This document shows positions 42,371-62,834 of a stretch of 64,000 nt of DNA, piece after piece. Location of the stretch: positions 16,436,187-16,500,186 of the forward strand of contig OZ020525.1 of NCBI GenBank assembly GCA_963971425.1, in the 5' to 3' direction. How positions within the stretch are numbered: the stretch's first letter is position 1; each line of letters opens with the position of its first letter. Made by a program: the position numbers and the translations under genes. This DNA is from Bryoerythrophyllum caledonicum. Its lineage: Eukaryota > Streptophyta > Bryopsida > Pottiales > Pottiaceae. Below the pieces are notes generated by a model. The model saw only the letters and a program-made list of their open reading frames with translations, did no database searches and had not been told where the DNA came from.

Positions 42371-43945
42371 AGCCGCGGAAGTCCCTACAAGTGCTACTTC
42401 GGGGCTCCGGAAGCAGAGCCGAGGCGGGAGAGACGATGAGTTTGTTGGGCGAAGTGGTTGAGGATGGCCAAGTGCAGCGAAGTGATGTGGATAAGGTGGG
42501 GCCCTCCTTTTAGTAGGCCCACTTCGTTTATTTATTCTTTCCAATTCTTCATGTTAAGTAGAGATGGATTTATCTCTATGGAGGAATTGAGCATGAATAA
42601 TGTAATGTGGTTTTTCCTACATTGTAATGTCTTGTAAACATAATGTAATGTTCTTGTATTTATAAGCCATAGGTTAGCAATATGTTAGAAATATTGCTAA
42701 ATTATGTATTAGAAACACAAGCTCAAATACTTTGGTATGGTGATTTTGTTATTCTTCAAGGTAGGTTAGCGATATTCTAACATATACTTTTGGTATGGTC
42801 ATTTTGGGCTCATTTCATGTGAATTGTGAGTCCATCTTTGTATCAATTGGACGAGGCTTCTAGTGTGAATGGAGGTCTGTTTATTTAAGCTTTTCAAACT
42901 TTTGTGTCAAATAAAGATGGATTCATCTCTATGAAGGAGACTAGCGTGAACAATGTGTTTGATTTTTCTACCATATGGTAAATTTGATTCCTATTGAGCA
43001 TGAAGTATATTATCCTCAAACACATTATATCCTAAATTTTTGCAAAATATTTAGAAATTGACAATAATGAAGATGACTGCTATTTTAGTTTATTTAGTTG
43101 GGGCCTTAGATGGACAGTTCAAGTTTATGGCATTTAGTTTTGAATATGACAAAGGATGTTTTTAAAATAATAACAATAGGTGGATAGTTTTCTTGTATAT
43201 GAATTTATTAGTTTCCACATGAAAAATATATTTATCCACAATTCATTCACAAAAATAAAAATAATATTATTTAAAAAAAACTTATAAATTTTAATCAACC
43301 TTAATTAATAAACGCATTCATATTCAAAATATGAATGAATCAATTTATGTTTAGGGTACAACCCTAAACTAATCACAAAAAATTCAGACTTTTGAAGATT
43401 TCAAATATAACTTGAATACCACTATTAAGTTGCTTTTGTATAGATGATGAAAATATTGAATTCATGATTAGTACTTTTAGGTCAAATGATGAGAAGTTGT
43501 ATCATGAATCTATTGATCTATTTTGTGTTGTCCATCACAAATAAGTTCAACCATATAAACTAAAGGATACAACTATAATTTTCTACATATAACATGTAAT
43601 ATTCTACACAACAATTTCTAATGCCTTAGTTTCTAACATGATTTATTTGAATTTGATTATGGATCATATTTGATCATTATGATATCACATCCCAAATTGG
43701 ATTCTACCTTGTACATACAACCTCCAACGTTGCCAATGCAACGCCTCCAACCAAAATTGACCCTAACATAGCTATTCAATTTATTGAATTTGCACACTGC
43801 AATGACAAATTCTCGGCTCATATAAAAACAAACAAATCCAACAATTATCTGCCACTAATAGACAACACTACCATGGTTGAAAAGTTGACCCTATCATCAT
43901 TATTATTAACGGTTATTGCCAATTTGCCAAGGCTACAACATATAT
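42371..43945. other. 5' flank of CYP97C1 and AT-rich intergenic DNA
   Basis: Upstream of the start lies a GC-rich stretch of about 150 bases, then AT-rich DNA. A diverged duplication of a block with ATGGATTTATCTCTATGGAGG occurs at about 42560 and 42910. No gene is seen. Confidence 0.45.
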
Positions 43946-44222
43946 TATTGTCAATACACACACAGACTTACGACATCAGACTTTGTACACAAGCTATGGC
44001 CAAGAGCGGATGCTCAATATGACACTAAGGTGAAAACAAACAACAGCCGGGAAAACAACAATGTCATGATCGACCGCAGACATTAAGTACGTCTGGGAAG
44101 AAGACATAGTTCAAGGATGAATGTCATCCAACATCCAGCTAACTAAATATCATCTGACTAACTAAAGATCAGAGTAACTAACTAACTAAGTAATCTATCA
44201 ACGCAACGATGCAATACCAATA
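43946..44222 (-). repeat. copia LTR (3' LTR in element orientation)
   Basis: 277 bp with ends TATTG...CAATA, nearly identical to 59391-59667. A purine-rich tract (GAGTGGGAG on the minus strand, 44223-44231) lies directly inside it, as expected for a polypurine tract. Confidence 0.9.
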
Positions 44223-44710
44223 CTCCCACTCATCGTAAAGAGTTGAGAGATCATAACCCTAACCACAAAATCTCCCACTTGATATTCAATGCTTCACGAT
44301 GTTTAGAAGAGATCGCAGTCGAAGAAACCGCTCAGGAGTCACTGGCTTGGTAAAAATATCCGCAAGCTGATGATCCAAAGGAACATAAGAAACATCAATC
44401 ACACGAGCTGTCTACATCTCACGGATTTTGTGATAAATCACATCAATGTGTTTGGTCCGCTTATGAAACTCAGAGTTGAGTACTAAACGGATCGCTGATT
44501 GATTGTCACTTTTTAACGGAGTAGGGCCTTGAAAAGAAACTCCCAAGTCAAACAGCAACCGGCGAAGCCATACAATTTCCTTGCCAGCTAGACAAGCAGC
44601 CACATATTCTGACTCTATTGTGGAAGTAGAAGTACAGGGCTGCTTTCTACTAAACCAAAGAACTGGCGCGCTATTGAACAGAATCACGCATCCACTTCTG
44701 CTCTTCCGAT

Positions 44711-45306
44711 TGTCGTGCACAAACACATCGTGCAAAGATAACATCGTGCCAACAGGTGAGAGCGCACAATTAGAGGCAAACTCGGAGCAATGGTGACTAT
44801 ACTATCACCGTTGCCTCCGTAAACAACGAAAACAATAGTTCACAAAAGAAACTATCAACCTCCAACAACCTAGGCTAGGGAAAAAGAAATAAATACCTAG
44901 ACCATAACATTTAGTAATTGGTCTACAAGGACCCCTTTACTAACAAATAAGTGATAAACACTCACAAATCACAATAAGTCAAGTCCATGCCACTCTTCAA
45001 GAGTGAAAACATGATATGGATGAGGCTAACGATGTGCAACACGCACACACCTTCACCTCATCACGTGGGAGACTCAACTTGAGAAAGATGAGTCTCCCTC
45101 AACCACACGTGGAGGTCACCCGGGTTCCAAGTCCCGAGATGAGGTGTCGAAAGACACCACCGTTGCCCTAGCCGCCCACGGCACTAAACCTAACCCTAAT
45201 CTCCCGTTAGCACTAAGTCTTGGGCTCTCCGGTAACTCCACAACTCTCTAGATGGTTTCTACCCGAATACCATCTACACAAACACCTCCATGCGCCGATC
45301 CTGACA
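44711..45306. repeat. complete LTR of the nested element
   Basis: 596 bp with TG...CA ends. Its first 231 bp recur at 45309-45539 and its last 366 bp at 54782-55148, each differing at only one to three bases. Confidence 0.75.
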
Positions 45307-45308
45307 GC

Positions 45309-45539
45309 TGTCGTGCACAAACACATCGTGCAAAGATAACATCGTGCCAACAGGTGAGAGCGCACAATTAGAGGCAAACTCGGAGCAATGGTGACTATAC
45401 TATCACCGTTGCCTCCGTAAACAACGAAAACAATAGTTCACAAAAGAAACTATCAACCTCCAACAACCTAGGCTAGGGAAAAAGAAATAAATACCCAGAC
45501 CATAACATTTAGTAATTGGTCTACAAGGACCCCTTTACT
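45309..45539. repeat. first part of the second, split LTR
   Basis: A direct repeat of 44711-44941, one mismatch seen by eye (ATACCTAG against ATACCCAG). Confidence 0.75.
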
Positions 45540-45768
45540 CGCCCCCTTCGCCCGTGCTGAAGCCCCTTTCACACCGGCGAACCACACAATTAACGTAAAG
45601 TGTATGAACGACCGAGCATGAAAACCTCTCACGTCCAGAAAAATCAAGGTGACCTATAGAAAAGACACTAATAGACCGTGTAGACAAAGGATAGGCCGGG
45701 TGCAATGAGAGCCCCATCGTTAATCGCCTCTAACACTTTTAATGGCTAGACTTTGTCTACGTAGACTC

Positions 45769-47481
45769 TTAATGTGCTAAACAATTTGGACACGACCATT
45801 GACCCACTGGTACCTCTAGAAGAGGTGGGGTTAGACATTCTAGATGCCACCCCGTAGAACAAAGGTCACAAATGACCATTGTGGCTGTCTGTTTGGCACT
45901 ACCACACAATTGACATCGCAATCCAGCGGAGATGTGAGAAATACCAGAGTTTACCGTGCCATCAATGTGTGGTAAATGGCAAGGAGCGCAATTGCGCGTG
46001 TGATCCTTCCATATCTTACCATCACGACCCTCCAACAGTAACACTCCTGAGTGCTTCACCTCACGAACTCGCAAGATCACCCGTCCCGCTGTCACATCCA
46101 AGGTGGTGGGCGTTGCTTGCTGCAAATACACATAGTCTCCAGGAGTAAACCGTCGCACTTGCGGTCGGTAGCCTCCTCCCCGAATTGTAGCATAACGCAA
46201 CGTATCCCGATGTTGAGCAATGGAAAGATTCTCCAATGCCATAGGCATCACCCGTTTGAACAAATCCGCACGTTGCTCACAAACTTGAGCCCACATATCT
46301 GGATTGTCCATGTTAGCCAACACGGTGTCAGCATCTGCCTGAATGGCCTTCGGTAACACCGGTTGCCTTCCAAACAACAAAAAGTAAAGAGAAAAGGACG
46401 CCAAAGATGCTTGCTTACTAAACCGGTAGCCCATGGCTATCCACGGTAATTGCAAGTCCCAATCTTGATGATGTCCCTTCTTCAAACTATACTTCCGAAG
46501 CCCCCTCTTGACGGTTTGCACCATGCGCTCTGCCAAGCCATCCGCTTCAGGGTGATCCCTTGAAGTAGTGCGGTGATCTATCATCGCTTGCTCACACAAC
46601 GTTTGAAACTCACCCAAGAATTCCCTTCCTTGGTCTGTGAGAACTTCCGCTGGAGCTCCAAAGCGGCTCAATACACGATCAAGGAAAGAGTAAGCGGCCC
46701 CCTCACTAAACTTGTCAGGCAACGCTACCAACTCTATCCATTTCGAGAAGTGCTCGATCATCACCAACACATACTTATTGTGTCGAGGTGTCATTGGTAA
46801 TGGACCAGCAAAATCTAAGCTCCACCTATATCCCAAGCCCATAATTGGCAATGGTTGCAATTGTGGCATCGGAGCGTTAAAAGACGCTCGTACCCGATCA
46901 CAAACCATACACCGGGCTACCAAGACTTGAACTTGAGTTTGCATTCCTCGCCACCAATAGTGAAGCTGGAGCAAGCTATAAGTCCTCCGCACTCCAAAGT
47001 GCCCAAGGTCTTCATGCGTGTCCTTGATGAGCTTCACTCTCTCCAATGGAGTTGGCACAACCTTTCGCGTGCCATCCGCCCACACCCTCACAAGGTGAAT
47101 CCTCTCCCACACGAACCGTTTGGCTCGTTGTGAGACCCGATCTCTCTCCTTAGCGGACCACGCAAGCACCACTTCTCCATTCTTTAGAAAATGCATCACG
47201 TTCGTGTCTTCAAAGATGTCTTTGGCGCCCCCAGATTCTTCACCGACATCCTCATCTACCGTGGCCACAGTAGAAGCTCCGGTGTCATCTTCACGCATCG
47301 CCAATACACTTAGAAAGGCCGAACAATGCCAACCTGGCAACGGATCGGCCTCATCTTCCCCGTGCCACCTAGCGCCCATAGCATCCGCTTGGTTTGGAAT
47401 TGGATTGCGGCTAAGGCCGTCGGCATCCATATTCACCAATCCCGCTCTGTGCACCATCGGTTTCCAAGTATCCTTGGTCAC
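45769..47481 (-). CDS. integrase reading frame with C-terminal PHD finger
   Basis: A 570-residue frame. It begins with the tail of RNase H (VNMDADGLSRNP). It then has the integrase HHCC finger (HEDLGH ... CMVC), the DDE core (Asp in SLDFAGPL, Asp in LTDQGREF, Glu in DGLAERMVQ) and a C-terminal SH3-like region (FTPGDYVYLQQ). The last 51 residues (520-570, about 45772-45924) form a complete Cys4-His-Cys3 PHD finger: CQLC, CDLC, HLEC, CPNC, with WHLECLTPPL typical of the fold. PHD fingers read histone H3 tails. Many gypsy elements carry a chromodomain at this place; a PHD is an alternative chromatin reader. It is part of the fossil element. Confidence 0.85.
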   Translation of the reverse strand: MTKDTWKPMVHRAGLVNMDADGLSRNPIPNQADAMGARWHGEDEADPLPGWHCSAFLSVLAMREDDTGASTVATVDEDVGEESGGAKDIFEDTNVMHFLKNGEVVLAWSAKERDRVSQRAKRFVWERIHLVRVWADGTRKVVPTPLERVKLIKDTHEDLGHFGVRRTYSLLQLHYWWRGMQTQVQVLVARCMVCDRVRASFNAPMPQLQPLPIMGLGYRWSLDFAGPLPMTPRHNKYVLVMIEHFSKWIELVALPDKFSEGAAYSFLDRVLSRFGAPAEVLTDQGREFLGEFQTLCEQAMIDHRTTSRDHPEADGLAERMVQTVKRGLRKYSLKKGHHQDWDLQLPWIAMGYRFSKQASLASFSLYFLLFGRQPVLPKAIQADADTVLANMDNPDMWAQVCEQRADLFKRVMPMALENLSIAQHRDTLRYATIRGGGYRPQVRRFTPGDYVYLQQATPTTLDVTAGRVILRVREVKHSGVLLLEGRDGKIWKDHTRNCAPCHLPHIDGTVNSGISHISAGLRCQLCGSAKQTATMVICDLCSTGWHLECLTPPLLEVPVGQWSCPNCLAH

Positions 47482-47526
47482 CGCCTCCTTCGATTCCTTT
47501 GGAGCAGGATTCTCCTTCCTTGGTTG

Positions 47527-50500
47527 CTATTGGATGCCATGCGAAGGAGAATCCTCTCCTTCCACCTCCACCAAGCTTCCAAGTCCTTCCAATTGGCATA
47601 GTTTGCCAATTCTCTCCCTTTGGTGAGCTGTGTGTTCTCCCACGAACACAGCCTCCTCCAAATCCTTCGTTTGGTGGGCCAATTCCCTACTTCGGTTCCA
47701 ATCCTTCACTCCATGAAGAGGATCCTCAGTCTTGGGTGTCGCGAAAAGGTTCGCGGAGCTCCACATATTCCATGGGTGAGGTGCCAAGGCCTTCTCGCCC
47801 CCAACCACTTTGCCTGTCACCTTGACAGAGACAAATGGTTCTCCGGCCGCCCGCAACTCATAAGACCCCATGTAACCAGTAAAACTAGAAGCCAACCGCT
47901 TCTGTTCTGCCACTAGCAACGAAACGATCCACGTCAAGCAATTTAAGTCCATCGCTTGCCCAAGTAAAAATCGCCGTTGTTGCTCCGAGATCCCGGGTGC
48001 ATCGGTAGTGCCCGTGGAAAATCCCATGGCTCTCTCCCGTTCATCCGCATTAGGCTCCACCATCTCTTGAGACAAGGAATCCCACACAAGACCCGGGCCG
48101 TTATCCTTAAAGGCATACGACCGAGCAAAACTAACCAACGTGGGCAATGCCCTACGTGGTTCTCCTTTGCGGTTGACGACCGCCAAAGGTGCTTGGTCGT
48201 CATGATAAACGCGCCGCGGTGCCCTGTGAGGATCCAAAATATCACTCACGTAGACATCCGGCCGTTTAATTCGACCCACAGCGGACTGTAACAACTCTTG
48301 AGGTGCTAAATTCGTCCACCACAATCGCGGGCGATGTGCTCGCGATCCCACCGTAGCTGCATCCAACAATACGGGCATACCCAGAGTCTGGTGTATGCGG
48401 TGCATGCCCTCTAATGTCCTCGACCTCGAGCTACTCATCACTGGTACATTCTCCACAATGTAACCTGGTGGTCGCTTCTGAGAGGTTTGAAGCAAAGACA
48501 ATACCCGAATCATATCATGAAACCGCGAAGATCGAGTGTCTTTCAACCCGTTTTGATGTCCAGCCATTGACAATCCTTGACATGGCCATCCCGCGATGAC
48601 AAGGTCCACATGGCCAACACGTTGAATATCCTCTGCTGAAAGCAAAGCAATATCACCAAGAAGAGTAGAAAATGAAGTCTTGATGGCACTAGTGGCCAAC
48701 AAGTTTGGAAATTGGGTCCTCAATCGCCGTGAATGCCGCTTAGCCACGTGCCTTGCTGCCTCATCAACATCTACGTAGATGTAGCGTTTGACCTTCATCC
48801 CTGCTTGCAGCACTGCCGCCAAGCCACTTCCAATCCCTCCGAACAACTCCAACAACACAATACCATCCTCTGGTACCTTCCACTGAATGGTGGAAGTGTC
48901 TAGACGTGGGCCCAAGTCTTGGTCCACTCGAGAATCATCTTCCGGTTGTGGGAGTATCGAATGCTGCCAAGCATCTTCAATGACCTGTGCCGCATCCTTC
49001 TGAAGTTGAGTCGTGGTCCTCCACGGTGCTTCTATGCCAGGTTGATACGTCTCTGTATCTCCACCACTTGTGTCACCCACTTGGGCATCCATCTCGTGAA
49101 GTGTAGGAGTATCCATCGAGAAAGTATCACAACCCTTGTGAAACCATGATGGTCCCACATCCATACCTCCTGAGAAGGCAAACACGTCTGCAAGATTGCC
49201 AGTCAGAACTTGAATAAAACGAGCTGGCAGCTGAGCCTTCCGCCCATCTCCTGCTTGCCATCCTGGTCTATAACTTGCGGTTTCCTCCCACAAATCCAAG
49301 GTGAACCCCATGGGGTATAGCACCGCCGAGCCCACCAAGACATCGTATGACTTGGCCTCCGTTACTGTAGCTTTCACCTTCATAAAGCTTGCATCCTCGA
49401 CGTCATCTTCGTTGAGTCGTAAAATCAACTCTTCCTTTGTGATGCCTGTAGCATGCTCCGTACCCCCCATGGAAGTGCTAATTGTCCATGGACACTTCTC
49501 CAAAGTGTCCCCAGTCAAATCCAACCCCTCACGGGCAGATGCTCCCAGCATCAATGGTTGAGCTCCTGAATCCAAAAGCACTCGTCGAGGCACAAATACC
49601 CTCCCTTTGGGCCCAACAAGTTGGAAAATCCCCTGGGAGTTGTCAACCACCACTACACCAGGTGTAATGGATGACCTCTCAATTGCAGGTCTGGCGGCCA
49701 TGGTCTTGACACGCATGGCTGCTGAAAGCAGCCCCTCTACGTTGTCCTCTTGACTCTTATGCACCTCTCCTCCAACCACTTCCGTCTTCAACGCATTGAC
49801 GCCCGTGGAGTCACCCGACTCACATATGTGAGCCGCCATCTTGAAGACCGCTGCTGCATTGAAGCCCTCTTGTGACATCAATTTAGCAGAAAATAGTGAA
49901 GCCTCACAAACCACGTTCGCCGCTTCTCTCACCACCGTATTAGATGGCTCTACAATCCCAATGCTAGGGCGAGTAGTTGGCACCCCCCGACGAGTTGGAG
50001 GCACCATGGAAGATGTTGGCACCATCTCCTCCAACGTGAAAGACTCGGGCAATCGAGCTTGCCGGTTGTCCTTCCCATGTTGAGGATCCAATGTTGGACT
50101 TGCTCCACGTGGAACCTCCTTGGTCACCTGTGTTTGACTCCGCGTAAGGGCATAAGCCTCCCGTGAGCCATCCGTGATAGCAAGTGCCATGCCACTTAGC
50201 ATATAGTCCCCGAATTCGTCGTCTTCGGGCCTAAATCCGCCCCCAGCATGAAAACTAGGAGTGACTTGAGGCTTTTCACTCACTGAAGCAGCATTCGCGC
50301 TCATGGCCGCCATCTTGGCCTCCAACTCCGCGAATTTGGCCTTCCAACCTTTCTTGTCTCCTCCCGAAGACTTGGACTCCTTCTCCTTGTTGCCTGCCTT
50401 GGCTCCCTTGCCTCCAGAAGGCTTCAATTCGGGGTGAAGCTTCCAACACTTAGCCTCGGAATGCCCCTTGGCACCACAACCAGAGCAATAGCCACCAATT

Positions 50501-51525
50501 TGAGGGTTAGAGGACTTGCTTTCCTTGCAATCCTTCCTCAAATGCCCTGGTTTGCCACAACTAAAGCATAATGCTTCAGTGTCGGTGGCATAGGAGGGAA
50601 CCGAAGCCTTGGCCACCTTGACCTTTTCAGGAATCTTCTCTTCACGTTTGAGAAATCCCATGGCCGCTTTCTCCTCCAATAAATTGATCTCAATTCTCTC
50701 AGAAGTCTCGAATACAAATCTCAAAGTCGGTGGCTCACCCAATCGCAATGCCTCATTGCGAACTAAGGTCTTCAACTCCTTCTCTAGGATGCTATACCAG
50801 TGCTGCACCGCTTGCTGCTCCGTGACTCCGTGAGTAGCAGAAATCAGTCTCCGCAATCTCGCATGAGCTTCTCGCAAGGATTCATCTCCTCCTCGCGCAA
50901 AAGACCTCAATGCCTTCATCTTATCCGCCCGTTGACCTTGATAGTCTCGACGGATCTGTGTGAAGAATATGGCCGTAGGGTTAAACGGAGGTGGAATAGC
51001 CACCGTTTCCATCGGTTGGCTCAAGTCCTCGTTACTACTCGTGCCCTCCTCCTGCTTCCTCTTTCCCACACGTGATGGCACACTCGGCGCTCCGCCGAAT
51101 ACATCCGCGTAATTCGGTGCATAGAAATCCCTCCATGCCAATATCTCTGTGAGGTGAGCCGCCTCGAATTCTCCATAATCCGCTAACAGAGCTCCCTCTA
51201 GACATCCAAATAACGCCCTCCACACCATGTAAGGGTTGAAGTTGGGGTTGCGAGACTTCTGGAATTCACACCACATGGTGAACTCCCTCTTGAAGTCATC
51301 CGCTTCGATAGTGCCCGTGGCACCCGAAAACCGTCGCACCCTCCGTTCTCCTCCTCCTCCATATGGTGAAGCCATCTCCTCCCAATCAAAAATTGATTGC
51401 AAAGGTTTTCTTGGTGGGGAACTTGCACTACGTACCAAAGATTCCACCACAAACTCACGTTCTTCTACTATCGGTTGAACCGTACCCTCCTCTTCCTTCG
51501 ATTGAGTGGTAACTTCCTCCACCAC
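47527..51525 (-). CDS. gag-protease-DNA cytosine methyltransferase reading frame of the retroelement
   Basis: One open frame of 1332 residues. Residues 60-300 look like a Ty3/gypsy gag capsid region. Zinc knuckles CFSCGKPGHLRKDC (320-333) and CSGCGAKGHSEAKC (347-360) follow. A retropepsin-like protease shows LLDSGAQPLMLG near 650-661. Residues 889-1205 form a C5 DNA methyltransferase in the unpermuted order: motif I LLELFGGIGSG (891-901), motif IV GWPCQGLS with the catalytic Cys (989-996), motif VI ENV (1025-1027), motif VIII RAHRPRLWW (1062-1070) and a motif X-like LLGQAMDLNCLTW (1187-1199). No RFTS, BAH or chromodomain is seen, so it is not a host MET1 or CMT fragment, and the order excludes the permuted DRM type. 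In the family this would methylate DNA at C5 of cytosine. It is part of the fossil element. Confidence 0.85.
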   Translation of the reverse strand: MVEEVTTQSKEEEGTVQPIVEEREFVVESLVRSASSPPRKPLQSIFDWEEMASPYGGGGERRVRRFSGATGTIEADDFKREFTMWCEFQKSRNPNFNPYMVWRALFGCLEGALLADYGEFEAAHLTEILAWRDFYAPNYADVFGGAPSVPSRVGKRKQEEGTSSNEDLSQPMETVAIPPPFNPTAIFFTQIRRDYQGQRADKMKALRSFARGGDESLREAHARLRRLISATHGVTEQQAVQHWYSILEKELKTLVRNEALRLGEPPTLRFVFETSERIEINLLEEKAAMGFLKREEKIPEKVKVAKASVPSYATDTEALCFSCGKPGHLRKDCKESKSSNPQIGGYCSGCGAKGHSEAKCWKLHPELKPSGGKGAKAGNKEKESKSSGGDKKGWKAKFAELEAKMAAMSANAASVSEKPQVTPSFHAGGGFRPEDDEFGDYMLSGMALAITDGSREAYALTRSQTQVTKEVPRGASPTLDPQHGKDNRQARLPESFTLEEMVPTSSMVPPTRRGVPTTRPSIGIVEPSNTVVREAANVVCEASLFSAKLMSQEGFNAAAVFKMAAHICESGDSTGVNALKTEVVGGEVHKSQEDNVEGLLSAAMRVKTMAARPAIERSSITPGVVVVDNSQGIFQLVGPKGRVFVPRRVLLDSGAQPLMLGASAREGLDLTGDTLEKCPWTISTSMGGTEHATGITKEELILRLNEDDVEDASFMKVKATVTEAKSYDVLVGSAVLYPMGFTLDLWEETASYRPGWQAGDGRKAQLPARFIQVLTGNLADVFAFSGGMDVGPSWFHKGCDTFSMDTPTLHEMDAQVGDTSGGDTETYQPGIEAPWRTTTQLQKDAAQVIEDAWQHSILPQPEDDSRVDQDLGPRLDTSTIQWKVPEDGIVLLELFGGIGSGLAAVLQAGMKVKRYIYVDVDEAARHVAKRHSRRLRTQFPNLLATSAIKTSFSTLLGDIALLSAEDIQRVGHVDLVIAGWPCQGLSMAGHQNGLKDTRSSRFHDMIRVLSLLQTSQKRPPGYIVENVPVMSSSRSRTLEGMHRIHQTLGMPVLLDAATVGSRAHRPRLWWTNLAPQELLQSAVGRIKRPDVYVSDILDPHRAPRRVYHDDQAPLAVVNRKGEPRRALPTLVSFARSYAFKDNGPGLVWDSLSQEMVEPNADERERAMGFSTGTTDAPGISEQQRRFLLGQAMDLNCLTWIVSLLVAEQKRLASSFTGYMGSYELRAAGEPFVSVKVTGKVVGGEKALAPHPWNMWSSANLFATPKTEDPLHGVKDWNRSRELAHQTKDLEEAVFVGEHTAHQRERIGKLCQLEGLGSLVEVEGEDSPSHGIQ

Positions 51526-52261
51526 TCGTTCACGAACGCCTACCGCAAATGGGGTGTTTCTCCGAGTGAAACCGAGCCCCTTCCACGTCTCCAGATTGAG
51601 AATTGATTAGCTCAATCAAAGAAGCGCCATGCTTCATGGGTGCCCTTCTTCTCCGGAGCGTAGATGGTGGGTGGTACTTCCCAATCGAGTAGCTCCAAGG
51701 TGAGTGTGTCCCACACACTGCTGGCCCGCTCTCGCCACGTACCCACTGCCACGTAGTATGAAATACGAAGCCTTCACTCTCAAACTCGGTAAAGATGAGG
51801 GAAAACGTGGGCAATTGGTTCCCTCGGCGGAAATCCACCACCTCCACGGTGTATCTTGACCCAACGTTCTTTAGGACAACGGCCTTCTGTCCAACCACAA
51901 GATCCACGGCTTCAACTTGGCCTCGTGCACGACAAAGAGGAGCTCGAACACCCTCCTTGGCCCGAAGCGCTCGTACTTTGCGCACCCCACCAAGTGAAGT
52001 CCAATACTTCACGGACTCTTCGCTTAGCACCTTCGTGCCTGGCTTTTGCAAGTCTTGAGTCCCGGTTCGAGACTTGGCTATGGGAGATAACTCAAAATCC
52101 CTACCACTAGAGCTTGCCTGGGAAGATGAAGATTTAAATTGCAAATCTTGGAGGCAAGTAATCAATTGACTAAGGGTCTCGGTGCTAATCTCTACCGTGG
52201 ATGCACTAGACTCTTTTGATTCCTTCTTCTTTCCTCCACTATCCATGTCCCATATGCTCAA

Positions 52262-54781
52262 TGCAACCCACTCTTTTTACGTGGTTGTATTAAGTGGGCT
52301 CACAATGGATGTTAGGGGAATGCTAGATTAGGGGAATGCTAGAATTTCACTTCTTGTTCACTATCATATGCCACACTTAGCTCACGTGATGCAACACATC
52401 AACAGTGTGCACAACAATTTGATGAGAACAATCCAAAGTCTAGCCATACATGATCCCCATAATCCAAATTCCTAGACGAAGTACAAGAGGAAAGCGACAA
52501 TGTCACTCACCATCCCATACCTCTACTAGTCACTCCCCAAAGGTGGCAAAGTACAAGAAAAAGGTGACTATGGCACCCAATATCCCACAACTCTTCCAAT
52601 CACTCTCACAAGCAAATTGGCAAGGGTAAGAAGTGGGCAACAATGGTACCCACTATCCCACACCTTCACCTCTTACAAGAATGACGAAGAGCAAGAAGAA
52701 GGTGACTATGGCACCCGCTCTCCCGCACTTTCACCACTTACTAACAAGATGCAACATACAAATTTGTCACTCCCCCAAGCAATCGACTACCCCCTCCCAA
52801 CGTAGGTCCGGATACGTTACCTTGTTGAATCGTCTTGGGCCACCGAATAGCTACCACTAGCTGTTCTTAAAGGAAACCCTAAGTCTAATCAAGCCTTATA
52901 ATGCCACATAAAAGTAGCTGGCTTTTCTCTAAAACCACAAAGTTCTAGGATAATACCATAAAATTCTAAGTGATCAAAATCACTAGAAACGGGTAACTCT
53001 TGCACTAAAATGTGCACGAAGCTAATATGTGCTCAAGCATGTATCATTCCCACATGGAGACAATTGCACTATGCAATTCTATCAAACTTTTGGCAGCGCT
53101 TCCGCGTCACCAAGAGCACCAAAATTTCACACCACTACAAGTGAATTCAATAAAGATTTAAGAAACCACAAGTGCCAACCACTCACCCGGTTACGGTGTG
53201 GATGTGGTAAACCCAAACGAGCACCTCACGCGCTAGATGGTGTTCTCCAACCGCCGGCGCTCCACTGCAAGCACTGGCTGCGACATTTCGGCACTTTGCC
53301 ACTGCTCACCACGGTATATCTAAACCAGAATCTATGACAGATTCCCTGACCACACGGTCTGCCTGTCCGGTGTACTTCCACAAGGAAATGACGTCCTGGA
53401 CGTCGCTGCTCACTTCTGGAAGTACTTTAATTGTTGCACCTCCAACTGCTGGCCAACCGGACTACGTGTACGTTCCCATAGGTATTATGATGTCCCGGAG
53501 TGCAATTCTTCTTCACGACCTCGAGCAGCGTGGAGAAGATGCCGAAGATGTTCACACGGTTGCGAATGATCACAACATCCTTCGTCTTGGAGGCAGTCTC
53601 GATATGCACGTTGATGCTCTTCTTCTAATACAGTCTCCCGATTCTTGCAGCCTCTAGGCTGTGACTTCTTCGTTCACGTCTCTGGCTCCTCCCAAAAGTG
53701 TCTTCACGAAGATTCCCGATTCGGTAATCCTGAAGAAGGGAGGCTCCGTCCTAAGCTCCGTAAAGTGTGGTCGTTGAGTCGGGCTCACGAAGACCGTTCA
53801 CATCACGGCCGCCTTGACGGAATCACCGCCACCTCAACCGCAACAGAGCTTCTCACGTGCACCACGACCGACATCTCTCCTACGAGTTCGTCCTCGTGGA
53901 GTCACCTCACCCAGTTATTGCAGGTGTCGCAGTGCAACATGCTCGCATCCGCCTTGTGAGGGATCTCCTTTCCTTCAACCTCCCAGTCTCGCAGTCCGAG
54001 GTTCGTGGGTCGACCCGGCCCAGGCGGTGGAGCACAAACCCTACGCCAGGACTCCAACCTCTTCCTTTCGGCTTGCAGGGAGCGCTCTCTAAACAGGTGT
54101 GTGCTGCTCCACAGCGACGTGATTCGGAGTGCGCGCTCTAGCGAATACGCTGCAGCATTCGGCAGAGTAAAATCTGCACTTTCGACGCAGATGCTAAACC
54201 CTGAAAGTAAAGGGGTTCACGATCTTCTCATACCGCCAGATCTACAATACTCTCGCAGCCTCGTCTTTAACGTTTCCGCTCCGGGGTGTGTGTGCAGTGC
54301 ACTCCGCGTTGACTCCAGCATCTGCACTCGTCCAGATGCCGTCTGTAAATCGGCTAGTCTTGCGATGTCAAGTGCACCGTCGGAAGGAGCGATTACTGAT
54401 CACACCCGGCGGTACTCACAACCGCATTAACTCCCTCCGACGCGCACATCAAGTGCACCTATCAATGAGGGTGGGGAAGAGATGTCTTCAGACGCCGTGA
54501 CCCCGCGCCCTCCCAGCCAACCTCTGGAACTTGCCGCTCCTCTGGAAAGCAGCCTCCTCGTCTGCAAACGATGGTTCGATGAACTTCCTCGAGCACACGA
54601 CTTCCCAGTAGCAGCACACCACTGCTTCCTGAAAGAAACTGAAACTCCGCCACTAGTGCCTGTTCTCTGGTTCCAGAATCTAGAAAACTATATTGTGACT
54701 ACAAGAGTTTCGAACAACACCCATTCAGATGTACTATAATGCCGTGGTTACACCCATCTCCACAACATGATCTTTCTCAAG
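52262..54781 (-). other. leader of the methyltransferase element, origin unclear
   Basis: About 2.5 kb upstream of gag. It holds a duplicated TTAGGGGAATGCTAGA (52312-52345), a tandem repeat (52478-52750) and a GC-richer part (53330-54700) with no recognised domain. I could not pick out an LTR border or primer site with confidence. Confidence 0.4.
52478..52750. repeat. degenerate tandem repeat, unit about 70 bp
   Basis: Four imperfect copies, each with a part like AAGAAGGTGACTATGGCACC followed by a TATCCCACACC(T)TTC-type segment and a run ACT(T/C)AC. Confidence 0.6.
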
Positions 54782-55148
54782 TAACAAATAAGTGATAAAC
54801 ACTCACAAATCACAATAAGTCAAGTCCATGCCACTCTTCAAGAGTGAAAACATGATATGGATGAGGCTAACGATGTGCAACACGCACACACCTTCACCTC
54901 ATCACGTGGGAGACTCAACTTGAGAAAGATGAGTCTCCCTCAACCACACGTGGAGGTCACCCGGGTTCCAAGTCCCGAGATGAGGTGTCGAAAGACACCA
55001 CCGTTGCCCTAGCCGCCACGCGGCACTAAACCTAACCCTAATCTCCCGTTAGCACTAAGTCTTGGGCTCTCCGGTAACTCCACAACTCTCTAGATGGTTT
55101 CTACCCGAATACCATCTACACAAACACCTCCATGCGCCGATCCTCACA
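54782..55148. repeat. last part of the second, split LTR
   Basis: A direct repeat of 44941-45306 with about three differences, ending directly at the copia junction. Confidence 0.75.
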
Positions 55149-58100
55149 CGATCATCAAAGTCGCCGGCAAAATCAGCATCCGCAAAGGCTGTAAGTGGAT
55201 CAGATTTGGTTGCAGGCATGTAGCACAAAGCATACAAGGAAGTGCCACGAAGATACTTCATTATCCTTCGAACAGCAGTGCAGTGGATCTCTCGGAAGTT
55301 ACTCGAATACTGAGCAACAGTAGTAGTCGCTTGAGCAATATCAAGTCGTGAAAAAACCATGACATACAAAAGAGACCCCACCATATTCTGATAAGGAAAG
55401 TCTGGTGAATACTGGTCATCATCAGGCAACGAACGGTGAAGATGAATATTCGCATCCGCCGGAGTGGAAACCGGATTGATAGAGCTGAAGCCAAACTTAG
55501 CCAACATGGTTTCGATGTACCTTGACTGATCAATGTACAAAGTCCGAAGAAAGCGGTCTCTGGTGAAGTGTAGACCGATATTAATATCAACACGTCCCTC
55601 CGTCACGTCAAAATCAGTCTTGAGATACTCAATCATACTTTGAAGCTTTACAGTAGACTTGCACATGCCCAAGCCGTCATCAACAAAGATCGTTACAGCA
55701 AGGAGTGGTTTCGAATATGAGAAGAACACGCATGGATCAGCTGTGCTCTGATGAAGCTCATATTGACATAAAAATCCTGAGAACTTCTTGTTCCACTGCC
55801 TGCTTGCTTGTTTTAAACCATACAAGGATTTCTTCAGTTTGCAGACTTTCCCATTGCTGTCAGGAAGGAGATACCCGGTAGGAAGATCCATGTAAATCTC
55901 CTCTTCAAGATCACCGTGCAAGAAAGCCGTCTTAATGTCAAACTGTATCAACTGTAAATCATTTGCAGCAGCGAGAGACAGTATAGTCCGAATGCTATCA
56001 GCTGTAGCAGTTGGCGCAAAAGTCTCATCATAATCAAATCCAAAAACCTGAGAAAAGGCTTTTGCTACCAAGCGGGATTTAAAGCAGTCAATTGTGCCAT
56101 CCGACTTTACTTTGATTTTGAAGATCCACTTGTTTTTAACAGTCTTTCTGCCAACAGGGAGTTTGACCAAATCCCATGTGTCATTGCGAATGAGAGAAGA
56201 TATCTCATCGTCCATGGACAGTTTCCATTCCTGTGCATGTTCTGACTGTAACGCCTCATGAACTGTAAGTGGCTCTGTGGGTAAGAGATACTGATAGGTC
56301 ATAGAAGGCTTATCTGAAACTGAAGCTGCTAGAAAAGAAGTCGAATAAGGATGACCTGGGGAAAGTGTTTGATCATATATATCAGTTAGGCTCGTGGTCT
56401 TCAGCACTGGATTTAAAGAATCAGGAGAAGCTGAGATGGATTCTCCAGGAGTCGATGACGGCAAAGTATGGGAAACACTCCCATTGATCTGTGTATCGTT
56501 ACTACCACGAGCACTCCCACTGGAACTAATAGTGCCTAAAAAAGGTGCACTACCACTCGTTGAAGGCACAAGTTCTCTGATGTTCAAATCTCCTTCAGAA
56601 CTGGGTATGTGAGAAATTTGCCTCAATAAAGGTGATGTCTCGCCATCATTGGTATTGTCAGACAATCTCCCATTGAGGCTCGCACTCCCAGTGAGTCGAG
56701 TAGTACAAGGATCATAACTTTCTGACGAGGAGAGTAGAGTAGGTGTATTCCGTCCAAGACTCTAAGAATCAGTCGATATAGATGTAGAAATTCCCGGATC
56801 AACAGGAACAAAAGGACTAGGAAAAAGCTTATCAATCGAAATGACGTCAAGCTCAGAAATATGTTGACGAGAGATGGTACTGTCCTCATCAAATATGACA
56901 TCTCTACAGATGATAAGGCGTTGAGTGTCGAAATGCCACAGACGATAGCCCTTACTCGAGCTGCTGTATCCCAGAAACATGCATTCACGCGTCTTGCTGT
57001 CCAGCTTTTTTCTTAGAGTATTCGTAACATGGGCATATGCCATGCTTCCAAATATACGGAAATGCTACACATCTGGTATTACACCTATCCACTTCTGTAG
57101 AGGTGTAGAGTTGTGAATGACTCTTGAAGAAACACGGTTGAGAGTGTAAACTGCTGTATTCACAGCATCTGCCCAAAATCGAAGAGGAACATTTTTCTGA
57201 TAAAGCATACTCCGAGTGCACTCAATAATTGTTCGATTGTCCCGTTCAGCAACTGAGTTCTGTTCCGGTGTGTAGGGCACAGTCAGATCGTGATGAACTC
57301 CTTTCTTGAGCAAATAAGCTTGCATCTTCTTGTTGACATACTCTTTTCCATTGTCTGTTCTAAGACGCTTGATAGAGTTGCCAGTGATATTTTTGGAATA
57401 CCTGAACAATCCCTTGAAGTGATCTAGTACTTCGGCTTTGGTTTTGAGGAAAAACACAAAACGAAAGCAGCTATGATCATCTTTAAATGTCAAAAAATAC
57501 CGATGTCCTCCAGTTGACTCAACCTCAAACGGTCCTGAAAGATCACTATGAAAAAACGTCCCTGGAGTCTTCACATGCTTCCCTTCATTATTCACAGGGA
57601 AAGGACTTCGATGTTGTTTCCCGTGAGCACATCCTGAGCAAATGCCCATATCAACCTTGGCAGAAATATCCAAACCGTGAACAACATCACTACGTCCCAT
57701 GAGTTTAAGGGTTTGAACATTTACGTGCCCAAGTCGAGCATGCCATCTCTGAAAAAGCAAGGTAGCTTTCGATGGTGTAGAACATGTTGTCACGATGACA
57801 TGAGCTTCACTCATTGGAGCTTGTGTCTTGATGTCAAGCCTCCACAGATTGTTGTCTCGGTATCTAGTCATGAAGAGGCGACCATGGCCATAATCGGTTC
57901 TCATCTTACATTGGTCACGAACATGAATTATGGCCACTCTGTTTTTCGTAAGCTGTGATACAGAGATGAGATTCCTGGCTAGGTTTGGAACATATAACAC
58001 ATTCTTCAATTGAAAAGTTGAAGGCTCATTGTTCACGATGGATGTGACTATAATATCACCAATTCCACGAACCCACAATCGATTGTTGTCCGCAATAGTA

Positions 58101-59380
58101 ACCCCCCAACAAAATTCGGGAATAGCCTCAAACGATGAGAACCATGGCCGTTTGTCGGTCATGTGTTCTGTGGCTCTTGAATCGGCAATCCATGAAACAG
58201 TCTCCCACTCATCATATTGATGATGAGAAACGGTAAATGCCTCACTGGAAACTGAATCCGTGTCTTCTGAAATAGAGTCAGAATCTTGAATATGACTTGA
58301 AGAAACATGAGCATGGCTTTGCTTCTTAAATCCTGGCTTACGAGACTTCTTGAAATGAGAGCTCGCCCTTGGAGATTCACCAGAAGAGGAGCAGGAGGAA
58401 TTTGGACATTCTCCCGAAAAGTGTCCACGCTGACCGCACTTATTACATCTAGAGTGCTTCTTTAGGTTTGCTAACCTAGTCGCCTTAGATTTCTTCTGAT
58501 CTGTAGCGAGAGCTGAACGAGGTTGGGGTTTGGATTTTGAACGAGAAGTACTAGAAGGGTTGCTGTGAGAAAAGAAAGCACGCTCCACCTCCATGTCTGT
58601 TCTTCCACCTCTATCCTTTAGGGCGATCTCACGTTTGACCAATCCTTGAGGGTTTGTTTCTCGAATGGAACATTGTCCCAGGCTAACAAGAGAGAATCAT
58701 AACTAGGCGGTAAACTGCATTTGATTTTGCTCAAAACCTGCCTCTCAGAAATATCTTATCCCAGATCAATTAACTGCTTGGTTAGTTTCTGTACATTGCT
58801 GATAAACACCGCAATAGTATCATCTGGAGATAGCTTACACCGGTAGTATTTCTCTTGAAGAGAGATAATGCACTCCTCCGAATGTTGCTGATGGTAAGCG
58901 TTTAACTGGTTCCACATAGCAGCAGAGGTTTTGCAATTTATTACCTCTTGTTTGTGGTGACGATCCACCGCTGACAAAATTGCCACTGCAGCTGTCTTGT
59001 CGCGGCGATTCCATCTCGCTTGCTCCTCCGGAGTAGCTTGATCGCTACTCTTTGACACACCTGTGACGATGTCATACAGATCCCGTGCTTGAAAGATGAA
59101 GGACATGTGCATCTTCCACAGCTGAAAATTGGTGCCATCGTATCTTTCAACGCTGGCTGCCTCCCGTATCGCTTCCCCTTGATCAACCATCTTGACTCGT
59201 ACTTACTAAACTAATAAGAATCGTGTGACCATGAATAGAAAAGTCACTCTTTCACTCTTTTTATAAAAAAACGAAACCCTAATGCTCAACACAGAAACAA
59301 CCAACTACACGCATGTCTCTCAAACGTCCGTAGCATGAGGAAACCTAAAAAAAACGCGCATCTACCAAGCGTTGGTAACC

Positions 59381-59390
59381 GCCCATAACC
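59381..59390 (-). promoter_or_regulatory. copia primer-binding site, half-tRNA type
   Basis: Directly inside the 5' LTR the minus strand reads GGTTATGGGC. This is complementary to the anticodon region GCCCAUAACC of plant initiator tRNA-Met, not to a tRNA 3' end. Priming from a cleaved half of tRNA-iMet is the known mechanism of Drosophila copia and some relatives. The match is short, so this stays an inference. Confidence 0.5.
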
Positions 59391-59667
59391 TATTGTCAAT
59401 ACACACACAGACTTACGACATTAGACTTTGTACACAAGCTATGGCCAAGAGCGGATGCTCAATATGACACTAAGGTGAAAACAAACAAGAGCCGGGAAAA
59501 CAACAATGTCATGATCGACCGCAGACATTAAGTACGTCTGGGAAGAAGACATAGTTCAAGGATGAATGTCATCCAACATCCAGCTAACTAAATATCATCT
59601 GACTAACTAAAGATCAGAGTAACTAACTAACTAAGTAATCTATCAACGCAACAATGCAATACCAATA
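59391..59667 (-). repeat. copia LTR (5' LTR in element orientation)
   Basis: 277 bp, three mismatches to the partner LTR. The outer side carries the TATAT duplication shared with 43941-43945. Confidence 0.9.
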
Positions 59668-61808: not shown

Positions 61809-62834
61809 ATGGCTCCTAGAAGGACTCTTGCTGAACGTAAGTTAGTTCTTCAGATGCATGAGAGAGGGAATTCGTACTCCGAAATTTCAGCGGTTCTAGG
61901 CATCTCTCGAAGCACTTGCCATGCTATTGTGCGGAGGTTTACAATGAGAGGTCATTTGAGAGATGCTCCTTCACAAGGGAGACCTCGAATTCTTGATGAA
62001 CGTGGTGATCGTGAGGTTGTAAGGTTGTTGAATGCACCATCTAATGGTACAGCTACAGCAGTGGGTAGAGAAATGCGATCTCAAGGATTGGATTTGAGTG
62101 ATGATACAATTAGAAGATGTCTTCAGAGGCAAGGATTGAGAGCACGAGTGAAAACTAAGAAGCCATTCTTGTCAAAGAAACACAAAGCACGTCGATATGC
62201 ATGGGCAAAGAAGTGTAGGCATGCAAGTTGGATGGACTGGAGTTATGTGGTTTTTTCAGATGAGTCAAAATTCAATTTGTTTGGCTCAGATGGGAGGCAG
62301 TATTGTTGGAGGAAGAGAGGAGAGCATCTTTTAGATCAGCATGTGCAACCTACTATCAAATTTGGAGGTGGAAACATTATGGTTTGGGGATGTATGACTT
62401 GGGAGGGAATTGGCAACCTTTGTCTTATAGAAGGAAACATGGATAAGTTTGTGTATCGTGAAATTTTGGAGATGGAGCTCATGAATACTATACACATGTA
62501 TGATTTAGGAGAGGAGAATGTTATTTTTCAGCACGACAACGATCCCAAACATACTTCTAAGTATGTTACAGATTGGTTGTTAGCACAGAAGTTTCAACTA
62601 ATTTGGCATCCGGCTCAATCTCCTGACTTGAATCCTATAGAACACCTTTGGAATGAAGTAGATCGTCGTATGAGAATGTCAAAGAAGAAACCCACTAACA
62701 AGAAGGATTTGTGGGAGAAATTGCAAGAAATTTGGTATAGCATTGAGATTGATACCGTGAGGAAATTGATCATGTCTATGCCTGAGAGAGCTGCAGATGT
62801 TTATCAAGCAAAAGGTGGCTATACACGATGGTAG
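61809..62834 (+). CDS. Tc1-like DD34E transposase
   Basis: An intact 341-residue protein, the usual Tc1 length. The N-terminal half has two helix-turn-helix parts (SYSEISAVLGISRSTCHAIV near 18-37 and the region after GRPRIL). The catalytic triad is Asp in VVFSDESKF, Asp in IFQHDNDPKH and Glu in LNPIEHLW. Thirty-four residues separate the last two, so it is DD34E. It ends SMPERAADVYQAKGGYTRW, a standard Tc1 tail. It cuts and pastes the element at TA sites. The start is the first ATG, about 290 bases inside the left TIR. Most plant mariner-like elements are DD39D, so a DD34E Tc1 in a plant is unusual. Confidence 0.95.
   Translation: MAPRRTLAERKLVLQMHERGNSYSEISAVLGISRSTCHAIVRRFTMRGHLRDAPSQGRPRILDERGDREVVRLLNAPSNGTATAVGREMRSQGLDLSDDTIRRCLQRQGLRARVKTKKPFLSKKHKARRYAWAKKCRHASWMDWSYVVFSDESKFNLFGSDGRQYCWRKRGEHLLDQHVQPTIKFGGGNIMVWGCMTWEGIGNLCLIEGNMDKFVYREILEMELMNTIHMYDLGEENVIFQHDNDPKHTSKYVTDWLLAQKFQLIWHPAQSPDLNPIEHLWNEVDRRMRMSKKKPTNKKDLWEKLQEIWYSIEIDTVRKLIMSMPERAADVYQAKGGYTRW

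Follow-up and report, generated by a model that had tools for sequence, protein, structure and literature searches.

A Dnmt3-like DNA methyltransferase in the gag-protease frame of a Ty3/Gypsy-type retrotransposon family of the moss Bryoerythrophyllum caledonicum

Introduction

Why should a parasitic element carry a silencing enzyme? The question is raised by a locus in the moss Bryoerythrophyllum caledonicum, where an earlier note had read a DNA cytosine methyltransferase (DNMT) fused into the gag-protease frame of a retroelement. We analysed the 64,000-nucleotide stretch that holds it (the window; contig OZ020525.1, assembly GCA_963971425.1) and the 437-Mb genome. Coordinates are window positions, and features lie on the minus strand unless stated otherwise. 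The 2018 paper that the note had cited does exist, with the content claimed; it describes DNMT-bearing retrotransposons in dinoflagellates and in a single charophyte alga (de Mendoza et al. 2018, PMC5890265). There, the SymbioDIRS enzymes give de novo CG methylation in yeast, and the activity of the Klebsormidium element enzyme in yeast was undetectable, a result judged inconclusive by the authors (PMC5890265). Listed titles and abstract openings from the open-licence PMC literature gave no report of DNMT elements in mosses or liverworts.

Results and Discussion

ORF1 and its methyltransferase

ORF1 (47527..51525) is a single frame of 1332 codons from a GTG and encodes gag, protease and a C5 DNA methyltransferase, exactly as first described. 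Its first ATG is codon 51 (at 51375). Marchantia and Sphagnum gag proteins begin, by eye, at the matching position; the protein actually made is thus likely to have about 1282 residues. A CCHC zinc knuckle of gag occupies residues 320–335 (50521..50568; Pfam E = 8e-5), and a second knuckle, CxxCxxxGHxxxxC, is seen by eye downstream of it. The Pfam scores of gag (E = 0.021) and protease (E = 0.053) are under the cut-off. The aspartic protease-like stretch (residues 640–780, 49186..49608) is assigned from DSGAQ, the sub-cut-off Pfam match and alignment with relatives; an Asp-protease domain is precomputed for three of these (P0021, P0023 and P0053).

The Dnmt3-like domain covers residues 889–1205 (47911..48861) and is defined by Pfam, PDB match and motifs. 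Pfam DNA_methylase matches residues 952–1068 (E = 1e-13). The best PDB match is DNMT3A over residues 889–1075 (E = 4e-10), followed in this comparison by PDB matches by 4onj ('DNA methyltransferase', 7e-8), a plant DRM, and M.HhaI (3.5e-5). In the PDB alignment, ORF1 has PCQ where DNMT3A has PCN. The motifs ELFGGIG, WPCQ (with the catalytic Cys982), ENV, SRAHRPR and LLGQAMDLN, motifs I, IV, VI, VIII and X, follow in the standard order. An alignment of nine diverse relatives has an invariant catalytic Cys, motif VI Glu-Asn and GSxAHxxR, and the AlphaFold2 model of the domain has a mean pLDDT of 88.8. Judged from its sequence, the ORF1 methyltransferase is intact and of the Dnmt3-like C5 type.

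The window copy and its siblings

The whole element, delimited by repeats and flanks, is 10,438 bp long (44711..55148), with TG at 55148 and CA at 44711. It is inserted in a copia element (43939..59667; LTRs 43939–44222 and 59384–59667), whose frame is restored as ADADFAGDFDDRKSRSGCVILF when 44711–55148 is excised and the flanks are joined. Target-site duplications lie on the left (55149..55152) and right (44707..44710), each reading ATCG on the minus strand. Upstream of gag, ORF0 (51530..52261) is coding-like in siblings; its C-terminal region reads differently in the window copy because of a frameshift relative to them. ORF0 matches no Pfam family and nothing better than E = 0.06 in a PDB search, and no convincing counterpart was seen in group 3 (L026, L027) or L056.

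Related copies are numerous. Scoring of the moss genome gave 123 methyltransferase matches (20 of them, counting the window copy, lie in frames no shorter than 1300 codons), and 21 further copies are 94–97% identical to the window copy over at least 5.4 kb. Gag, protease and DNMT travel together in the siblings, and their order is repeated in many copies across many contigs. By Pfam, siblings such as L009 and L027 show the Ty3/Gypsy order of gag with CCHC, protease and RT–RNase H–integrase. The frame that was described does belong to the family, but siblings have two main ORFs, of which it is just the first. The window copy itself is incomplete, with RT and RNase H deleted. About 1,368 bp are gone, in frame; the joint (47453..47456) consists of 4 nt common to both sides, and sibling alignments run up to 47453 and resume from 47456. 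What remains of pol (45769..47526; Pfam, PDB) is the tail of RNase H, an H2C2 and rve integrase (rve E = 1e-13; best PDB match Ty3 Gag-Pol) and a PHD finger. An RT-less form multiplied as a non-autonomous subfamily is unsupported, as the joint is spanned by one of 40 scored matches (291 first-look candidates). The window copy is a recently inserted, RT-deleted member of a Ty3/Gypsy-type DNMT family in a land plant, a moss, with a captured Dnmt3-like gene.

A leaky-type stop between ORF1 and pol

In siblings, gag-protease-DNMT is followed by one in-frame stop and then by RT-RNaseH-integrase-PHD. The stop and its context, TAG CAA CCA (47521..47529), fit the UAG CAR YYA motif (PMC2754532). This context, with CAR read as CAA, is found in 19 of the 20 copies read at the ORF1/pol boundary and, beyond these, in L056. 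It spans groups with ORF1 products only about 34% identical. Copies of groups 1 and 2 except L025 also have CAA upstream of the stop, as in TMV, and in nine copies the open frames are unbroken on either side. By consensus, the moss elements have the same stop and next six nucleotides as the Tobamovirus leaky stop (PMC2754532). Unlike that stop, the moss one lies at a retrotransposon gag-pol junction.

This stop follows gag-protease-DNMT and precedes pol, which places the DNMT with Gag. The first product of complete siblings would be Gag-protease-DNMT, and the conserved motif suggests that a few ribosomes continue through the UAG into RT-RNaseH-integrase-PHD, so that minority readthrough adds the pol product. 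The DNMT would then be produced at the level of Gag and not of Pol, since only this minority adds pol, and would be incorporated in every particle. The closest known system, compared by description, is KnitGypsy-Dnmt3 of Klebsormidium nitens. As described in PMC5890265, it resembles the moss family in its Gypsy-type pol, Dnmt3-related DNMT, DIRS-like repeats and purifying selection on the DNMT; its DNMT is described in the Pol ORF, whereas that of the moss family is in the gag-protease ORF before the leaky-type stop.

Repeats and element ends

By repeat comparison, the window copy contains A1 (367 nt, 54782..55148), B1 (231 nt, 45309..45539), A2 (366 nt, 44941..45306) and B2 (230 nt, 44711..44940), which terminates the element. 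A1 and A2 differ by two mismatches and one gap. The order A-coding-B-A-B, with split direct repeats of DIRS type, is shared with siblings, and a tandem duplication of the copia host was rejected as its source since the same repeats are present in sibling copies elsewhere. At the B1/A2 joint (45303..45312) is the 10-nt palindrome GACAGCTGTC (CA-GC-TG). A purine-rich block before B1 (45540..45582), near-identical in groups 1 and 2, is a candidate polypurine tract. By eye, a hairpin is possible within this block.

TG..CA ends and 4-bp duplications are present in 8/8 copies with both ends read (the window copy, L009, L011, L021, L027, L016, L024 and L025). Two identical full LTRs at the element ends, an LTR-element trait, have no match here, where the order is A-coding-B-A-B or A-coding-B. 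No TGG-type tRNA primer site is seen by eye after A1 in four copies, which leaves the replication cycle unexplained. Pfam finds no Phage_integrase (tyrosine recombinase) match in ORF1 or ORF2. DIRS elements share the split repeats with the moss family, but the latter differs in its rve integrase and 4-bp duplications. SymbioDIRS-Dnmt3 and SymbioLINE-Dnmt of Symbiodinium are likewise DNMT-carrying retrotransposons with many copies, as described in PMC5890265; they belong to the DIRS (tyrosine recombinase) and LINE classes, whereas the moss family has a DDE integrase and target-site duplications.

The A-coding-B-A-B repeats point to a circular DNA stage that would be cut at the palindromic B/A joint, with the DDE integrase inserting the element and leaving the observed 4-bp duplications. 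The repeats might instead be a mere by-product of LTR recombination or tandem duplication, with no circular route, which we regard as possible but doubtful. Copies with A-coding-B only (L016, L024 and L025) and L023, which has three A-B units past B1, fit such an origin; the identical GACAGCTGTC joint and 4-bp duplications in three diverged groups argue against it, as does the DIRS-like repeat structure reported for KnitGypsy-Dnmt3 in PMC5890265.

Selection and the likely substrate of the enzyme

Between groups 1 and 2, dN/dS (NG86) is 0.040 for DNMT, 0.057 for gag, 0.022 for RT and 0.025 for IN, and 0.39 for the spacer after DNMT, all rough ratios because dS is near saturation. Comparisons with group 3 are left out, with several dS of -1 (NG86 saturated); a value of 3.4 for the DNMT of groups 2 and 3 is an artefact of this saturation. 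The ORF1 frame is not a chance one, given the 123 scored genome matches and dN/dS far under 1. CpG observed/expected is 0.74–0.79 in the elements, 0.71 in the copia pieces and 0.74 in the rest of the window, so the elements show no CpG depletion against either. The copies also carry no CG-specific mutation scar; C/T-variable sites number 98/715 for CG, 71/450 for CHG and 235/2540 for CHH.

Self-methylation, as proposed in the earlier note, is plausible. The DNMT would most likely methylate double-stranded cDNA in the particle before integration, so that a new copy would already be marked on arrival. An enzyme acting mainly in trans, on the host genome or older copies, as a self-limiting or host-taming device, is rather unlikely. 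Gag-level expression would be expected to yield much free enzyme, the PHD finger of the integrase hints at an element that can already read chromatin marks, and slowed retrotransposition as a possible benefit is discussed in PMC5890265. However, the fusion with gag and protease in one frame points to particles, and the copies are without a CG-specific signature. The best overall explanation, which we hold to be probable, is a Ty3/Gypsy-type moss family with a captured Dnmt3-like DNMT, made at the Gag level, methylating particle cDNA and passing through a circular stage. The Gag-side DNMT and leaky-type stop predict DNMT in particles and methylated cDNA, testable in bryophytes, and bear on the opening question.

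Relatives and age of the capture

DNMT relatives are found in Marchantia, Calypogeia, Sphagnum and green algae. Those of the first three are known from proteins with source labels of hypothetical or unnamed, and in some cases 'DNA methyltransferase'. The Marchantia protein P0004 (Mp_4g09160) has the gag-protease-DNMT order and is 55% identical over the DNMT; P0203 and P0234, also from this set, are 51–54% identical over the aligned part. Metagenome elements P0035, P0040 and P0052 and Haematococcus P0075 have the same domains as the moss siblings, PHD finger included, with the DNMT between RNase H and integrase. No K. nitens protein is among the 75 matches listed or the best 120 of 252 matches, from a database that includes K. 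nitens.

In DNMT and RT trees of 35 elements, built without cellular Dnmt3 and the Klebsormidium element, one branch separates the two DNMT positions each time (SH-aLRT 99). P0033, P0034, P0042 and P0053 fall on the moss clade side in the RT tree (92) and on the opposite side in the DNMT tree (90). The note had left a shared ancestral element and an independent capture side by side; within these element-only trees, a single old element lineage common to green plants is favoured. The tree evidence suggests a DNMT long kept in this lineage, with one move of position within it. Convergent capture by each plant or algal lineage is improbable, somewhat more so than action in trans. The two DNMT positions, the conflict between trees for the four DNMT-first rows and the trees' lack of cellular Dnmt3 speak for it, and independent captures in dinoflagellates and K. 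nitens are argued for in PMC5890265. Against it stand the single branch (99) in both trees and the approximately 47–56% DNMT identity among the moss, Marchantia and several metagenome elements.

This moss has DNMT retrotransposons in abundance, under selection and with recent activity, and their relatives extend to liverworts, Sphagnum and green algae. The capture therefore seems to be an old one among green plants, and no Klebsormidium rarity. Returning to the shared lineage, we tentatively extend it to a green-plant-wide Gypsy lineage in which Gag-level DNMT and leaky stop would give methylating particles, and a DIRS-like circle with the GACAGCTGTC joint would be opened there by the DDE integrase with a 4-bp duplication; we consider this wider reading unlikely as a whole. 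To our knowledge, Gag-level DNMT, a DIRS-like circle and DDE integration at the joint have not been described together. If true, pre-methylated DNA would be delivered via a replication route between those of LTR and DIRS elements.

A one-off chimera or assembly join in the window, with a methyltransferase unique to this locus, has a negligible chance of being correct: the RT deletion seen only in the window copy is all that speaks for such an origin, which is ruled out by relatives in other species and by sibling copies that keep the gag-protease-DNMT order across many contigs. The 123 scored matches include L001, the top PF00145 match in the genome, which is bacterial in type and outside the DNMT element family. 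The IMG/VR loci L042–L055 give short matches of 24–54%, and L057 and L058 are alike.

Methyltransferase frame and element family

The minus-strand frame at 47527-51525 (ORF1) has 1332 codons and runs from gag through protease to a C5 DNA methyltransferase (DNMT), as the earlier note had claimed. Pfam recognizes DNA_methylase (E = 1e-13) and a zinc knuckle (8e-5) in this frame; its gag and protease matches fall below the cut-offs. Among PDB sequences the best match is DNMT3A (E = 4e-10, residues 889-1075), followed by a plant DNA methyltransferase and M.HhaI. The DNMT carries the catalytic and SAM-binding motifs, and its key residues do not vary across nine diverse relatives. The AlphaFold2 model of the domain has a mean pLDDT of 88.8 and a pTM of 0.90.

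Related copies are present in the host genome, as the same note had proposed to check. From 123 DNMT matches, 20 further loci were taken, mostly for long frames. In 19 of these 20 siblings, matches to the window ORF1 product and to its integrase region occur in the order anticipated; L020 has no integrase match within the stretch examined. The ORF1 alignment is in pieces in L017, L018 and L028. Both frames are unbroken in nine copies, with an ORF1 of 1305-1371 codons stop to stop, a single same-frame stop and an ORF2 (the pol part) of 1041-1047 codons. In L009 and L027, ORF2 contains RT, RNase H, integrase and PHD finger domains. Identity to the window ORF1 product defines three groups, at about 95-98% (group 1), 74-78% (group 2) and 34% (group 3; L026, L027 and L028).

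The RT-RNase H region of a relative matches all 20 siblings (L020 partly), but not the window copy. In all 21 other long matches the match ends at 47453 and the 3' part picks up again at 47456. About 1,368 bp, corresponding to RT and RNase H, have been lost without a shift of frame, and of 40 scored matches just one runs across the joint. Lacking both domains, the window copy cannot reverse-transcribe on its own.

Genomic setting, borders and repeats

The contig that holds the window is 22 Mb long, in an assembly of 437 Mb. A neighboring carotene-hydroxylase-type P450 gene in seven exon pieces shows 91% identity to Ceratodon purpureus and 83% to Physcomitrium; other named proteins reach at most 81% and unnamed ones up to 89% (best 120 of 618 matches). 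These values identify the host as a true moss. The element has the layout A-coding-B-A-B, with repeats A1 at 54782-55148, B1 at 45309-45539, A2 at 44941-45306 and B2 at 44711-44940. It starts with TG at 55148 and ends with CA at 44711, both flanks share ATCG, and the reading frame of the surrounding copia element is restored when it is left out. Only 2 substitutions and 1 gap separate A1 from A2, and 1 substitution and 1 gap B1 from B2, compared with 6 of 284 positions between the copia LTRs, so the insertion is young and the copia element around it is older.

Duplications of 4 bp flank all eight copies with both ends read: the window copy (ATCG), L009 (AGGA), L021 (AGTG), L011 (CCTC), L027 (GTGC), L025 (AGCT), L016 (AACT) and L024 (CCGT). 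Five of these are A-coding-B-A-B and three are A-coding-B (L016, L024 and L025). L023 (C9:22317493-22327492) carries three tandem A-B units after B1 and then the 3' flank AGTT; its 5' end lies outside the stretch examined. The B1/A2 joint is GACA-GC-TGTC in all three groups. A purine-rich block ahead of B1 is nearly identical between groups 1 and 2, and the sequence that follows A1 showed no TGG-type primer site.

If the LTR is taken as B-A, complete elements would resemble two-LTR circles opened at one B/A joint, and A-coding-B copies one-LTR circles opened in the same way. We can only infer such an origin, because recombination between B1 and B2 would also yield the A-coding-B form. In L056, a contig from outside this genome (9,285 bases, of which 9,209 were examined), the opening 51 bases appear again at the end of the examined stretch, and just one B-A joint is present. 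This recurrence (at least 51 bp) is as expected of a circle; assembly of a repeated element would give the same.

Several other features were seen in the window. In the element leader, a unit of about 61-73 nt is repeated imperfectly in tandem, four times in all (52474-52742), and much of the first 1.5 kb of this leader in the window copy has no alignment to siblings. Upstream of gag, ORF0 (51530-52261) is a conserved frame of 216-218 aa in groups 1 and 2, with no known family; L009 and L011 differ in it by 51/40/119 at the three codon positions, and the window copy reads differently near the C-terminus. An open Tc1/mariner-like transposase of 341 aa (DDE_3, HTH_Tnp_Tc3_2) lies at 61809-62834, and a 259-aa ORF without a Pfam match at E up to 1 at 25144-25923.

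Stop between ORF1 and ORF2

The boundary reads TAG followed by CAA CCA (groups 1 and 2) or CAA TCA (group 3) in 19 of 20 copies (19 siblings and the window copy; L017 is without the region). The exception is L024, with CAG in place of TAG. The group-3-like element of L056 also has TAG CAA TCA. Within this set of moss copies and L056, the codons flanking the stop site vary between groups and the motif stays. It fits the tobamovirus readthrough motif UAG CAR YYA, for which passages of PMC2754532 give a TMV readthrough in plants of 32%. We infer that DNMT would be produced together with Gag, and that pol would follow through readthrough of this predicted leaky stop. L056 (CADCWO010000201.1) is filed under a Synechococcales (cyanobacterial) MAG and is probably a contaminant there, since it carries a plant-type DNMT retroelement.

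Selection on the domains

For dN/dS, the nine intact-ORF copies among the 20 siblings were used (four each from groups 1 and 2, and one from group 3); values involving group 3 were left out as saturated or unreliable. Between groups 1 and 2 (16 pairs), dN/dS is 0.040 for DNMT, 0.057 for gag, 0.101 for protease, 0.022 for RT, 0.021 for RNase H, 0.025 for integrase and 0.071 for PHD. The spacer after DNMT gives 0.39 and the linker 0.15. Within groups, DNMT shows 0.20 (group 1) and 0.10 (group 2). By these ratios, the constraint on DNMT is about that on gag.

Relatives and domain order

The 75 proteins listed in the first search include those of Marchantia polymorpha, Sphagnum fallax, Cymbomonas and Haematococcus, and most of the others come from metagenomes. 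A further search (best 120 of 252 matches) adds Calypogeia, Sphagnum troendelagicum and Marchantia paleacea, as well as metagenome proteins whose identity reaches 88% along part of the length. None of the matches listed bears the source name Dnmt3. Two domain orders occur, with DNMT before RT or between RNase H and integrase. Of 80 proteins weighed (75 matches and 5 of the moss genome), the DNMT stretch was usable in 77, and 35 had RT-RNase H as well. In both 35-row trees (quick method, SH-aLRT support only), one branch with support 99 parts the two orders, 12 rows from 23. The DNMT and RT trees agree on a moss-Marchantia clade and on an RNaseH-DNMT-IN clade, and conflict on proteins P0033, P0034, P0042 and P0053: the RT tree groups these four with the moss clade (92), and the DNMT tree puts them on the opposite side (90). 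Rooting on the two most divergent rows, a weakly justified choice, makes DNMT-first the older order, which would suggest that DNMT moved once.

This kind of element is already known. The 2018 work named in the earlier note does report a DNMT-bearing retrotransposon of Klebsormidium nitens, KnitGypsy-Dnmt3, which passages of PMC5890265 describe with a DIRS-like repeat structure and put down to capture in the K. nitens lineage; passages of a 2025 paper restate the streptophyte and dinoflagellate cases. The words Marchantia, PHD and readthrough are absent from the main text of PMC5890265, and methyltransferase and PHD go unmentioned in passages of a plant LTR survey. As far as searches of open-licence literature show, the moss family is an addition, and so are the position of DNMT on the Gag side ahead of a leaky-type stop, the duplications of 4 bp and the putative single relocation.

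Function of the DNMT

A cautious reading is that DNMT may be carried in particles and mark cDNA. Its fusion with gag, its conservation and the CG activity of SymbioDIRS DNMTs in yeast, given in passages of PMC5890265, support this. Against it, CpG ratios within the elements are unremarkable, and the C/T-variable sites of nine group-1 copies have no CG bias (CG 13.7%, CHG 15.8% and CHH 9.3% of sites). The higher CG and CHG rates relative to CHH are in keeping with ordinary plant methylation. The Klebsormidium DNMT also showed no activity in yeast, a result that its authors call inconclusive in the same passages of PMC5890265.

About 420 kb from the window, locus L001 (C14:16014858-16018817) contains a full-length bacterial-type C5 methyltransferase ORF of 364 aa. 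Its presence in a chromosome-scale moss contig would reflect contamination, misjoin or transfer. The ORF beside it resembles an IS-type transposase.
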